Assembly: GCF_003977755.1 (NCBI RefSeq) | Contig: NZ_RQWN01000001.1 | Coordinates: forward strand, 822,995 to 886,994 | Source of the DNA: Haloterrigena salifodinae | GTDB lineage: Archaea; Halobacteriota; Halobacteria; Halobacteriales; Natrialbaceae | Direction of reading: 5' to 3' | Length of the DNA stretch: 64,000 nt | Shown here: one piece after another, positions 36,562 through 56,192 of the stretch | Position numbering within the stretch: the stretch's first letter is position 1 | Layout of the letters: each line of letters starts with the position of its first letter | Notes under the pieces: generated by a model | What the model saw: only the letters and a program-made list of their open reading frames with translations | Database searches by the model: none | What the model was told of the DNA's origin: nothing | Program-made: the position numbers and the translations under genes

Positions 36562-36693
36562 TTAGCCCGCGGTGAATCGAAAACTCGTTCCGCCACAGTC
36601 GGGGCACGAATCAACCCGCTTCGGGAGCGGTTCGGAAGCGCTCTCAGAGAGGAGCACGAAGCCGCACTCGTCGCACTCAATGTACGTGTCCAT
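36562..36693 (-). CDS. small CPxCG-type zinc finger protein, 43 residues
   Basis: Reads MDTYIECDECGFVLLSESAS, then PLPKRVDSCPDCGG and a short end FRFTAG before the stop. Two C-x2-C knuckles (CDEC, CPDC) make one zinc site, the plan of haloarchaeal micro zinc-finger proteins, some of which affect biofilm and motility. It starts 12 bases after the stop of the HalOD1 gene and must share its message. Too short for usual gene finding; Cys spacing and tight linkage support it. A HalOD1/zinc-finger pair occurs again at 52661-52997. Confidence 0.78.
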   Translation of the reverse strand: MDTYIECDECGFVLLSESASEPLPKRVDSCPDCGGTSFRFTAG

Positions 36694-36705: not shown

Positions 36706-36969
36706 TCAGCTTCCTCTCGCCGGTTCTATCCGAACTCCTGCGCCGCTGTTCTCCACAGAAACTCGAACAGTGCCGTCGGGTCCGCCGGTACCAGCATCTC
36801 TCAAAGATTCGACGGATATCGTCCTCGCGCCCGTCCAGTGGATAGCCGCCTCGAGAGCGTCCGGTTCGATACTCCGATACCGCAGAAGAAATTTCAACAG
36901 AGCGGCGTTGGTGACCAGCGAAAACTGCTTTCCAGTGGGATGAGTGATCGCGTGCTGGCTACGTTCCAT
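36706..36969 (-). CDS. HalOD1-like output domain protein
   Basis: 87 residues. The second half, RSIEPDALEAAIHWTG and TVRVSVENSGAGVRIEP, matches the HalOD1 plan (DPDAL helix, then two strands); the first half is diverged, and a 15-residue insertion lies between helix and strands. HalOD1 is a haloarchaeal domain thought to act as an output part of signalling systems. Start ATG 36969 is fixed by the TATA box 27 bases upstream, ruling out the longer frame from 37062. It heads a two-gene unit with the zinc finger. Confidence 0.7.
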   Translation of the reverse strand: MERSQHAITHPTGKQFSLVTNAALLKFLLRYRSIEPDALEAAIHWTGARTISVESLRDAGTGGPDGTVRVSVENSGAGVRIEPARGS

Positions 36970-52508: not shown

Positions 52509-52660
52509 AGAGAACGATATCGGCAGTTGCCGAAATATCTCGCGATTTGGGTACGGTCCTGCCGCTTTCGGTACGACAGCACGGCTCATATCAGCGACTC
52601 GAGACAGGCCCGTCTGCACTCGAGACGGGTGGTCGGCTGGCGATTCAAGTCGGTGAGCCG

Positions 52661-52876
52661 TTATCGAGCCTCGTCGATCACCACCTCGTCTGACCCGGGG
52701 CCGATCACGACGCGGTAGTCGCCGTATGCGAAGCGAACGGACACGTCCCCGTTCGACTCGAGCACCGCGGTCAGCGCCTCGGGGTCGATTGCCTCGTACA
52801 CCGGTGGCAGTGCCGTCCGATCACAGCCCTCACGGGCCACGATACGTGACAGTGCCGTGGCGATTGATGGGTGCAT
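52661..52876 (-). CDS. HalOD1 output domain protein, 71 residues
   Basis: MHPSIATALSRIVAREGCDR, then ALPPVYEAIDPEALTAVLES and strands VSVRFAYGDYRVVIGPG: the full HalOD1 pattern (helix, PPLY-DPDAL, two strands). Haloarchaea carry many of these alone or behind receiver domains; they are presumed signalling output or adaptor modules. The start overlaps the end of the small zinc-finger gene by 47 bases, so the two are expressed together. It is the second HalOD1 gene of this window. Confidence 0.82.
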   Translation of the reverse strand: MHPSIATALSRIVAREGCDRTALPPVYEAIDPEALTAVLESNGDVSVRFAYGDYRVVIGPGSDEVVIDEAR

Positions 52877-52997
52877 CGTGATCGTCGGGGCGTTCGAAGA
52901 CAGTCGTCGAGGGGTCCGGACATGAGGCCGGATCGTCAGTCGTCGCGAGACGGACGTCTGTACCACAGTCACAGTGGATGATAATTCTCGAGACCAT
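52830..52997 (-). CDS. small zinc-finger-like protein paired with HalOD1
   Basis: 55 residues. Begins MVSRIIIHCDCGTDVRL; C-x-CG knuckle, then SCPDPSTTVFERPDD, where the second knuckle has Pro in place of the second Cys (CPDP instead of CPDC). Zinc binding may thus be incomplete or use the His at residue 39. It is located directly upstream of the HalOD1 gene on the same message, whereas in the 36.6 kb pair the zinc finger follows. A TATA-like AAATAAAG lies about 95 bases upstream (minus strand). Confidence 0.6.
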   Translation of the reverse strand: MVSRIIIHCDCGTDVRLATTDDPASCPDPSTTVFERPDDHDAPINRHGTVTYRGP

Positions 52998-53628
52998 GTT
53001 TTGTTCGGTTTCAGGCCCCGACGCAGCGAAACGCAATCCAGCGAGAGCACCAGCCACAGGGACGACTGGGCGGCGAGACGTCGGCACATCTTTATTTCGC
53101 CACCGCCAATGGCAAATTGTCTCGCTACGCGCGGGCTACGTGCGAACCGGAGTACGTGCTTGGAGGCTGGACTTCGGCCTGGCGCACTTTCCTGCCCGTC
53201 TTTTTATTTCGTAATTAAACCTAAAGAACGCTAGGATACTGACCGGTCGGGGGTGTCGCTCGGGGGTCGAGATATTCTCTCGACAAATCGCCATGTTCCA
53301 CGAGGGTATTATTCCCCGGAACCACGATACCCCGTTTTCTCGAGTCTGCTCGGGTTACCAACTTCTCTGAGTGCTATGTGCCGACGAGATGCGTCATTTG
53401 AGAGACTGAAGAATTGGCCAACCCGATCAGAAATAGTCCAGTATCTCTGTATTCTTCGACCGGTACTCCTCATCAGTGTGGATACCGTCTTCGTCAAGAT
53501 CGTTTCAATCTCGAATTTTTCAGTCGTGCCAACTGTCAATACACTTTCAACAGATGTATACTTTGAACCAGAATAGACTGGAAAGACTATTCAATAGCTT
53601 TTAATCATTTTGAATAGAATAAAATGAT
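52998..53628. other. AT-rich intergenic region, no gene seen
   Basis: About 630 bases. The left 200 bases are promoter side of the zinc-finger/HalOD1 unit. From about 53200, and clearly from 53500, the base composition becomes AT-rich compared with the rest of the window. Frames of 76-107 codons exist on both strands (53253-53576 plus, 53309-53539 minus) but lack acidic character, codon bias and start signals. The right end carries the operator-like dyad and TATA of the next gene. Confidence 0.5.
53587..53617 (+). promoter_or_regulatory. 8-bp inverted repeat around a TATA box
   Basis: CTATTCAA (53587-53594) and TTGAATAG (53610-53617) flank TTTTAAT (53599-53605). The TATA centre is 27 bases before GTG 53629, which supports that start and a leaderless message. 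A repressor binding the dyad would block TBP. Confidence 0.6.
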
Positions 53629-54465
53629 GTGTGGGATCCATTTACGTCGAATAATTCGGGTCGCGAAGACAACAAACTAAACCGGCGATCGTGCCTGAAG
53701 GGGCTCGGTACGGCCGGTGCCACCCTGGCGACTGGACTGACGGCTGCCAGTGGTACCGCCGCGGCTACCTCGGAATGGAGTTACATGGTTCAGAAAGGCT
53801 TGGCCGAAGAGACGCCAGTTCACGTCGTCGCCGGGGAAGGGTACGGACCGACGGTCATGGTCGTCGGCGGGATGCACGGCGACGAACCAGCCGGATACAA
53901 TTCGGCGGCGAGAATCGCCCGGTGGAACATCAAGAGCGGCAGACTGATGGTGATTCCGGAGGCCTGCAAACCTGCTGTTCGGAAGGGAAATCGGTTATCC
54001 GACCGCAGCGGAGACGGTAACTTACAAGATTTGAACCGGGAGTTCCCCGCTGGTAAAACCCCGTGGTCACCGCTCGCACGAGGGATATGGAATGTCGTGG
54101 CCGACAAGGACATCGACTTCCTGCTGGACCTCCACAGTTCGAGTGGTCTGTACAAGTGGGGTAACGGAGGCGGCGTGGGCCAGGGCATCTTCGCGACGAA
54201 CGCAGGCGAGGCAGACCAGGTCCGACGCCGCCTTCAGTCGTACCTCAACGATGGCTTCATCGATAACGACACATACAAGTTCACGGGAGCGACGGCCGGT
54301 GAAGACGGCTCGAAACGTATGCTCAAGCACAAGGTCGGTGCGGACCTCAACACGCCGGCCATACTCTTCGAGACGTACCGCGGCCTCAGTGACGAGCGCC
54401 AGGAGACCCTGACGACGTCGGCCGTCTACAACGTTTGCCGACGGAAAGGGATGTTTGACAAGTAG
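53629..54465 (+). CDS. Tat-exported succinylglutamate desuccinylase/aspartoacylase-like zinc hydrolase
   Basis: 278 residues from GTG 53629 (no ATG in frame before the signal). Tat signal: Arg19-Arg20 in LNRRSCLKGLGTAGATLATG. The zinc site of the M14/AstE-AspA superfamily is visible: His83 and Glu86 in GGMHGDEPAGY, His169 in FLLDLHSSSG, and the substrate-binding DLNREFP. Such enzymes cleave amide or peptide bonds; here the substrate is likely outside the cell. Only one acidic catalytic Glu candidate (ILFETYRG) follows. Its codon use and acidity are weaker than those of neighbours and it lies in an inserted AT-rich zone, signs of transfer. Confidence 0.78.
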   Translation: MWDPFTSNNSGREDNKLNRRSCLKGLGTAGATLATGLTAASGTAAATSEWSYMVQKGLAEETPVHVVAGEGYGPTVMVVGGMHGDEPAGYNSAARIARWNIKSGRLMVIPEACKPAVRKGNRLSDRSGDGNLQDLNREFPAGKTPWSPLARGIWNVVADKDIDFLLDLHSSSGLYKWGNGGGVGQGIFATNAGEADQVRRRLQSYLNDGFIDNDTYKFTGATAGEDGSKRMLKHKVGADLNTPAILFETYRGLSDERQETLTTSAVYNVCRRKGMFDK

Positions 54466-54837
54466 GGCGATGACGGGGGCGACGGTGCGGCGAGAACGGT
54501 CTGACCGACGACGGGGACGCAAGCCCTCACCGCCTCTCGGGACGATGATCAGGCCACGTCGTGGCTCGCGTTCGGTATGACGAACGACACTAGCCAGGAG
54601 GCGAAGATCCCCGCGATGAGTATCGACCCCGATAACGACGCCGTCAACAAACTCCGGGACTACTCCGACGGCAAGGGAAAGTCGACGAACGAACTCTTCG
54701 TCGATGCCGACGTCCAGGACAGTTTGACCGAAATCCACGACGGCACGTCGCTGACGTCGACGATCGACCTCGAGACCGGAAAACGTGACTAGACACCGGG
54801 ACCGCTGGGGCACCCGAGCGAAGAGTACAGACCACGT
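54466..54837 (+). pseudogene. degraded coding remnant
   Basis: Within this stretch 54577-54792 (71 codons) reads MTNDTSQEAKIPAMSIDPDN and LFVDADVQDSLTEIHDGTSL, acidic and protein-like but not recognisable. The flanks have broken frames. It could be a short real gene, but next to a truncated PQQ-repeat fragment it looks like the remains of a larger one. Confidence 0.35.
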
Positions 54838-55155
54838 GTGACCCTCTTCAACGAGACTGTATACGTCGGCACCGACCGACTCCATGCCCGTAGCGCAGCG
54901 ACCGGCGAGGAACGCTGGAACGCATCGCTCCATGACGGTTCGATCCAGTCGGTGCCCATCACCGAAGAGCCTGTCGCGGAAGATCACGCCGTCTTCGCCT
55001 ACTCCGATGGTCGTCTCGTCGGCTTTGCACCGGATGGCGAGAAGACGTGGGAGGGATCGGTCTCGGGTGAGGTCAGCAGCTATATCGTAGACGAATCCGT
55101 GTTCGTAGCGACGAACGAGGGGATCTACGCACTGGATCGACAGGAGGACCCATAG
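54838..55155 (+). pseudogene. fragment of a PQQ/quinoprotein-like beta-propeller
   Basis: 105 codons: ETVYVGTDRLHARSAATGEE, AVFAYSDGRLVGFAPDGEKT and ESVFVATNEGIYALDRQ are three propeller blades of the PQQ-like repeat type, each ending G-x-x-x-A-x-D/G. Intact members have seven or eight blades and 350-450 residues, so this is a short end piece beginning at a weak GTG and without signal peptide. Confidence 0.7.
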
Positions 55156-55260
55156 GACCTCGGCCAAGTGCTGTACGCATTGGCGAACGGGTTGAGATGT
55201 GCGGTCCAGTCCCTGGCAAATTTTCAACCGCTACCTGTGCCTCGTATTTTGCGGAGTAGT

Positions 55261-55515
55261 GTGTCCCGATCGGCAAAATCCGCACTCGAGCTCGTAGAGC
55301 TCGAGAAGCTCCGGTCGATCTACGATCGTCTCGCGACCGAGATCGAAAGGGCCGTCGATCTGGAGTCGGTCCGTGCGGCCGCGCTCGAGGGCGACTCGCG
55401 CGACGATATCGGAGCCCCTCGGTACGACGCACTCGCGGTCTACGACCGGGTCCGCAACGTCGTTGAAGTGTGCGACACTGGGCTCATGCTCGGCGTGGCG
55501 TTAGAGGTCTACTAG
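55261..55515 (+). CDS. small hypothetical protein, 84 residues
   Basis: From GTG 55261: a helical protein with SALELVELEKLRSIYDRLAT and ERAVDLESVRAAALEGDSRD, ending GLMLGVALEVY. A TATA-like CGTATTTTG is centred 20-25 bases before the GTG. The pattern of heptad-like Leu/Ile with acidic residues is protein-like, but no family is recognised. It stands between decayed DNA and the convergent leuD. Confidence 0.45.
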   Translation: MSRSAKSALELVELEKLRSIYDRLATEIERAVDLESVRAAALEGDSRDDIGAPRYDALAVYDRVRNVVEVCDTGLMLGVALEVY

Positions 55516-55556
55516 AAGAGTTAGGTAACAGTCGAGTCGCCGTTAGCGAGAATCCA

Positions 55557-56192
55557 TCACTCGGCTTCGGGAATAGCCGACTCCTCGACGTACGGCAGCT
55601 CCCGGGCCTTCTCGCGGACCGCGCCGGCGTTGGACTTCATCAGCGCCGTCGTGTCCCAGACGCCCTCGACGAGCGCCTTGCGCTGGGCGTCGTCGACGGT
55701 GACGTCGATCGTGGTGTTGCCGTAAGTGACTTCCTCCGCTTCGACGTCGATGTCGATATCGCCGTCGGGATTCTCGTCGACCCAGTCCTGGAGGTCCTGG
55801 ATCGTCTCGCTGTCGGCCGTGACGGTCGGGATCCCCAGCGCCAGACAGTTGCCCGCGAAAATCTCGGCGAAGCTCTCGCCGATGATCGCGTCGATGCCCC
55901 AGCGCATCAGGGCCTGGGGCGCGTGCTCGCGCGAGGACCCGCAGCCGAAGTTGCTGTTGACGACCATCACCGAGGAGTCCTGGAATCGGTCCTCGTTCAT
56001 CGGGTGGTCCTTGGGGTTGTCGTCGTCGTCGAACCGGACGTCGAAGAACGCGAACTCGCCCAGTCCGTCGAAGGTGACGACCTTCATGAACCGCGCGGGG
56101 ATGATCTGGTCCGTGTCGATGTCGTTGCCCCGAATCGGGACACCGGAGCCGGAGACGTAGTTGACTTCGGGAATATCGACTTCGTCACTCAT
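55557..56192 (-). CDS. leuD: 3-isopropylmalate dehydratase small subunit
   Basis: 211 residues. Family motifs [35 protein letters not shown] and [20 protein letters not shown]. With LeuC it isomerises 2-isopropylmalate to 3-isopropylmalate. The start overlaps leuC by ATGA, giving coupled translation. After its stop the leu gene order is interrupted. Confidence 0.95.

Follow-up and report, generated by a model that had tools for sequence, protein, structure and literature searches.

A candidate structured RNA associated with a zinc-ribbon gene and a HalOD1 gene in haloarchaea

What does a HalOD1 protein do when its gene adjoins that of a very small zinc-finger protein? The name HalOD1 was given to a provisional output domain, which is common as a stand-alone haloarchaeal protein and, among the small domains of these archaea, is one of the most numerous (PMC5847659, in excerpt). 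One HalOD1 protein, DdfA, is required for the disk shape of Haloferax volcanii (PMC10869688, in excerpt). Our literature search found no established partner or mechanism for the domain. In a 64,000-nucleotide stretch of Haloterrigena salifodinae DNA (the window), a sequence-only reading had noted two HalOD1 genes, each tightly linked to a small zinc-finger gene, which raises the questions of whether the two products work together and whether such pairing is a rule.

HalOD1 and zinc-finger genes in the window

In the first pair, the HalOD1 gene P0001 (71 aa; 52661..52876, minus strand) and the zinc-ribbon gene P0002, called the finger gene below (55 aa; 52830..52997, minus strand), overlap by 47 bp in different frames. 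P0001 matches PF18545 (HalOD1) with 50 bits against a gathering cut-off of 26.3, and coordinates and domain match together confirm the HalOD1 gene with its overlapping small finger gene. The finger had been credited with CDCG and CPD knuckles; these cysteines are present, but they number only three, whereas relatives carry four as CxCG-x(n)-CPxC, and the fourth cysteine appears to have been lost in the window copy. Zinc finger micro-proteins are recognized by two knuckles with four cysteines; P0002 has three, and its family consensus (CxCG plus CPxC) has four. Such micro-proteins are numerous in Haloferax, are shorter than 70 aa and bear two C(P)XCG-like knuckles (PMC11241148, in excerpt; see also PMC10716476). 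The finger is like them in length (<70 aa) and in its two C(P)XCG-like knuckles (PMC11241148, in excerpt), but the window finger is tied to an RNA and to HalOD1 and has no family match: no Pfam or NCBIfam family was matched by P0002, and a four-cysteine relative gave no Pfam or NCBIfam match above cut-off.

Structure prediction gave a model of a finger relative with four strands in the finger part (mean pLDDT 74), in which zinc binding is putative, and a model of the module HalOD1 with a mean pLDDT of 83. A sequence search of solved structures returned weak or repeat-driven matches for the finger and no relative for HalOD1. With the HalOD1 model, Foldseek found nothing significant (best E 0.57), and VIA placed the ZAP central domain first (best Z 3.9 over 60 residues) and WWE domains next, none of it significant; the ZAP/WWE resemblance of this predicted model is a lead only. 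One module HalOD1 (L068) scores 54 bits against the NCBIfam DdfA family (NF053557), under the curated cut-off of 70. Neither window protein matched a type III toxin-antitoxin (ToxN-like) Pfam family.

The second pair consists of a strongly diverged HalOD1-like ORF, P0003 (87 aa; 36706..36969, minus strand), and the zinc-ribbon protein P0004 (43 aa; 36562..36693, minus strand), which belongs to a separate family and lacks the RNA. The genes and the 12-base gap between them are as originally described, but the HalOD1 identity of P0003 goes unrecognized by Pfam, with no match at E<=1 and the PF18545 gathering cut-off unreached; P0003 and two orthologues attain only 10–16 bits with a home-made HalOD1 profile. 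Relatives of P0004 occur in 19 of 119 genomes. Among 20 loci of such relatives, a clear HalOD1 gene lies just upstream in three (26–68 bits; L328, L327 and L318) and a weak one (9–15 bits) in four, the window's own included; no convincing RNA was found at these loci, the best score being 13.1 bits. To judge from these scores, a HalOD1–finger linkage at the second pair is plausible though eroded in the window, and the pair is a separate finger–HalOD1 arrangement. The proposal of two linkages stands in part, as a co-inherited first pair and a differently ordered second pair in a few distant genomes, but the idea that the two are repeats of one module was rejected, the RNA being present at the first only.

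Pairing as a general rule fares no better. This genome holds 38 HalOD1 domains, and only one has a two-knuckle neighbour, defined as a same-strand ORF of <=75 aa with two CxC/CxxC within 150 bp; most HalOD1 genes here are without a finger neighbour, and general pairing was rejected. The first pair of the window itself fails this rule because of its lost cysteine. In a control, 2 of 316 predicted genes of any kind in a sampled 354 kb of the same genome had such a neighbour, in a sample chosen around HalOD1 genes and with numbers so small that 1/38 against 2/316 neither shows nor excludes enrichment. A third HalOD1–finger neighbourhood in this genome lies at L177:4075-5444 (minus strand), where a two-knuckle zinc finger gene (71 aa) lies 47 bp upstream of the gene of a 368-aa HalOD1 protein.

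A bounded unit and its predicted RNA

At the first pair, a putative promoter, the RNA, the zinc-ribbon gene and the HalOD1 gene form one discrete, sharply bounded unit of ~600 bp. Similarity among copies within a genome begins ~255 bp before the finger gene and stops ~345 bp past its start. Between genomes, 29 intact copies share 79% identity in the promoter region, 81% in the RNA, 66% in the finger gene and 71% in the HalOD1 gene, with 21–25% in the flanks. The RNA is the most conserved element of the unit, and it had been overlooked in the sequence-only reading.

Relatives of the finger were found in 22 of 149 genomes searched (E<=0.01), the genome of the window included, with up to eight matches per genome; the weakest, in G060, looks spurious, and five other species of the genus yielded none. 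Named carriers include Natrinema species, Halopiger djelfimassiliensis, Natrialba swarupiae and Natrarchaeobius chitinivorans. Gene order was read in 54 fetched regions around finger relatives and in the window, and in most of them the finger overlaps a HalOD1 relative in the same order. All but one of the 58 finger relatives read lie in the unit with the RNA upstream, the sole exception being a truncated finger in G076, and in 34 of the 58 an intact HalOD1 of 65–80 aa starts exactly 47 nt before the end of the finger stop codon. By these two counts, the finger–HalOD1 linkage of the first pair exceeds chance. Co-inheritance of the finger and the module HalOD1 subfamily across genera is likewise supported by the sequences.

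The RNA is ~200 nt long and lies upstream of the finger gene, behind a promoter-like motif, ATCCTAACGTTCTTTAGG (ATCCTAGCGTTCTTTAGG in the window; 53220..53237, minus strand), which is near-invariant in 48 copies, aligns with CCGAAC..TATAAATA-type boxes of distant copies and may be read as an archaeal BRE plus TATA box. A near-invariant ATCCTAACGTTCTTTA motif is followed by the hairpin P2 with its GAAA-type loop and by P3, P4 and P6; the RNA also contains a long near-invariant unpaired stretch, GAAATAAAGA. In the window, the structured core (P2, P3, P4, P6) covers 127 nt (53078..53204, minus strand), is degenerate and scores 91.7 and 90.7 bits with the covariance models R1 and R2, respectively. 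P2 (53182..53197, minus strand) keeps a GAAA loop, and its pairs are partly broken. P3 (53144..53180, minus strand) encloses a hypervariable loop of ~20 nt (53153-53171), found in both orientations among copies and set in an otherwise rigid scaffold. The rest of the leader (52998..53077, minus strand) carries the 3' strand of a long-range helix, which closes near the finger start, and ends at the finger start codon.

Rfam 15 gave no family at gathering score for the RNA, the only such hit in the window being a tRNA elsewhere; the best local match at the RNA reached 16.9 bits, far under its cut-off of 55. A literature search of titles and abstract openings found no description of the RNA, though one may exist in print. 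Covariation supports the fold: with distant members included, and in an alignment fitted to this fold, both sides have changed at 17 of 30 pairs in at least one sequence, and 50 cells are doubly changed against 11.7 in shuffles, slid controls giving at most six pairs. The main group taken by itself gives a weaker signal (4 of 36 pairs). Of 11 predicted leaders, 10 have folds clearly more stable than those of their dinucleotide shuffles (z −2.5 to −7.3), and the window leader is the exception (z −0.9). By this evidence, the element appears to be an undescribed structured RNA tied to a zinc ribbon and HalOD1. To our knowledge, well-defined classes of structured leader or noncoding RNA that are proper to Archaea are few, and the RNA adds a candidate class hidden in the intergenic space of sequenced Natrialbaceae. 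The stand-alone HalOD1 proteins and DdfA have the same domain and are multicopy as well, but no RNA or finger partner is mentioned for them in the excerpted accounts (PMC5847659; PMC10869688). An RNA linked both to a dedicated zinc ribbon and to one HalOD1 subfamily offers a concrete starting point for testing the role of HalOD1.

A search of 391 haloarchaeal genomes from the class with R1, a model of the RNA core, gave matches in 38, with up to eight copies each, or in 35 after removal of three weak ones (G200, G371 and G009), which were taken as chance with no module genes adjoining. R2, a second model with distant members added, matched in 41 of the 391 at E<=0.01. Among seven further R2 places read, the one in G163 has a finger, the one in G076:C4 has HalOD1 and five have neither; weak matches in G178, G130, G295 and G244, again with no module genes adjoining, were also put down to chance. 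Eight distant R1 matches (families f1, f4 and f5), found by RNA alone, precede a finger and/or HalOD1 on the same strand: G048 and G086 (a near-identical copy) and G278 have both, G166 has HalOD1, G254 has HalOD1 and an eroded finger, and G150, G171 and G199, of one genus, have a finger only. With G048/G086 and G150/G171/G199 as near-duplicates or congeners, these eight amount to about five independent cases. The stems of the distant copies differ strongly from those of the main group yet remain paired. Two RNA matches stand apart: L176 (G076:C4:13933-14061) is a diverged RNA copy directly before a HalOD1 gene, without a finger, and L170 (G166:C12:133838-133960) is a good RNA match (6.5e-10) with neither gene downstream.

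In total, 77 copies were read, of which two were masked and 75 counted for composition, not every R1 match having been fetched. After hand correction, 52 have a four-cysteine finger and HalOD1, 14 a finger only, 8 HalOD1 only and 1 neither; the script had counted 53, 14, 7 and 1. The difference is L099, moved by hand since its finger pattern came from another frame and the real finger lacks one cysteine; the L096 pattern also came from another frame, and the real L096 finger is intact. Since 8 of 75 RNA copies are without a four-cysteine finger and 14 of 75 without HalOD1, neither partner appears obligatory beside the RNA. Variation at codon positions 1, 2 and 3 in the 29 intact units is 0.232, 0.164 and 0.328 for the finger and 0.215, 0.165 and 0.348 for HalOD1, whose frame is the constrained one in the 47-bp overlap. 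Because third positions vary most in both genes, both proteins are evidently translated; selection on them is mild, and they diverge faster than the RNA. The median RNA score is 135.3 where both genes are intact (50 copies), 117.5 where the finger is broken (5 copies; one-sided p 0.003) and 121.9 where HalOD1 is lost (10 copies; one-sided p 0.008), the p-values being rough because copies are not independent. Lower RNA scores where a partner is lost suggest that RNA, finger and HalOD1 work together.

The window copy is itself poor. Its R1 score is the second-lowest full-length score among main-group copies, far below the intact-copy median given above; P2 pairs are broken, the finger has lost a cysteine and the fold is no better than shuffles, and HalOD1 is intact. 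The unit in the window is probably decaying.

Possible roles of the RNA

The position of the RNA fits a 5' leader of the finger gene, with the transcript start predicted from sequence. With a transcription start that probably lies at the foot of P2, the RNA would be the 5' leader of the finger–HalOD1 mRNA. Immediately upstream of the finger start codon, it could adopt either of two folds that exclude each other, a local hairpin or the long closing helix, and the leader may then be a cis-acting translation switch. The zinc ribbon would most likely bind its own leader, and HalOD1 would be its co-translated signalling partner. Such a cis-acting leader, autoregulated by the encoded zinc ribbon, is the reading that we tentatively prefer, with real reservations. 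An RNA more conserved than either protein also fits action in trans, and copies exist in which the four-cysteine finger or HalOD1 is missing. Covariation, moreover, favours neither fold strongly, and 39 of 48 sequences leave one pair of the local hairpin open. Both folds are nevertheless largely paired: 90.6% of cells in the local hairpin with its downstream mini-hairpin, and 87.3% in the long closing helix.

Autoregulated leader RNAs are known for ribosomal and other RNA-binding proteins. The unit is like them in having a structured 5' leader before a small, possibly RNA-binding zinc-ribbon gene, and it differs in that no Rfam leader family matches, many dispersed copies occur per genome, HalOD1 is a partner and binding is predicted.

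It is possible, though we consider it unlikely, that the RNA acts in trans, as a noncoding RNA processed from or independent of the mRNA, which would assemble into a particle together with the zinc ribbon and HalOD1, the P3 loop giving each copy a target of its own. Conservation of the RNA beyond the proteins, its presence in up to eight copies per genome, the hypervariable loop on a rigid scaffold and the retention of the RNA beside fingers without HalOD1 in other families all fit; the RNA nevertheless lies directly against the finger gene, and the end of its closing helix is close to the start codon. OLE RNA, an ornate RNA, is coupled to a partner protein gene of its own next to it. The unit resembles it in this respect, but is archaeal, shorter and multicopy, has other proteins and leaves the OLE Rfam model unmatched.

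The P3 loop bears on how far such recognition might go. Among 65 distinct loops, 49 have one orientation, 12 the other and 4 are unclassed. Mean identity is 0.587 within the first class and 0.413 between classes; after reverse complementation the second class shows 0.584 identity to the first, and after plain reversal 0.292, a similarity partly built in by the CCAA/TTGG-type motif that set the classes. The loops of L116 and L117 (both in G085) match at 0.95 after reverse complementation. The simplest reading of these sequences is that the loop has been inverted within its palindromic stem, via recombination or template switching. That the multicopy RNA, zinc ribbon and HalOD1 make up a new archaeal RNA–protein module, in which this inversion yields a reversible, copy-specific recognition sequence, strikes us as distinctly improbable.

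Still more doubtful is control of a small signalling operon by a riboswitch that would sense a small molecule or ion. The near-invariant unpaired stretch, the rigid scaffold and the two exclusive folds could suit one, but just two small genes would be controlled, with no known pathway and no clue to a ligand, and the copies are patchy and dispersed beside unrelated housekeeping genes. We return to the autoregulated leader as the preferred reading of the RNA.

Dispersal of the unit

Copies of the unit adjoin unrelated genes in either orientation. At a site that we take to be pabB-pabA-pabC (28 loci in 29 genomes of one genus), the RNA motif is present in 14 loci and pabA abuts pabC in 14; in G205, the motif lies 1.5 kb away from this site. 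At the leu locus, a ~2.98-kb stretch (52581..55558), which contains the unit and an M99-type peptidase gene, is missing in five of five congeners. That gene (53629-54465, plus strand), M99/AstE-like by Pfam, has a weak Tat signal. A link to amino-acid biosynthesis, suggested by the pab and leu sites, was dropped, as other copies lie beside radA-, alaS-, phoU-, TYW2-, RIO2-like and other genes.

In the least likely reading, the unit would be a small mobile element, selfish or domesticated, that spreads by means of its RNA or DNA hairpins. This would account for the unrelated loci, the presence or absence of the unit at the pab and leu sites and the P3 loop inversions, but the unit holds no transposase or recombinase, the insertions compared (leu, pab) carry extra flanking DNA, so that they show presence and absence but neither clean ends nor target duplications, and the promoter and protein-coding constraint suggest cellular use. 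An origin of the finger family from plasmids or viruses gained no support, a pattern-based search of viral contigs and a search of plasmids having found no finger relative.

At L066 (G028) and L167 (G357), a gene called winged-helix-like by eye, with no Pfam match, and a second small gene (MAKIPENT..) lie between two copies of the unit, and the arrangement looks like a composite element.
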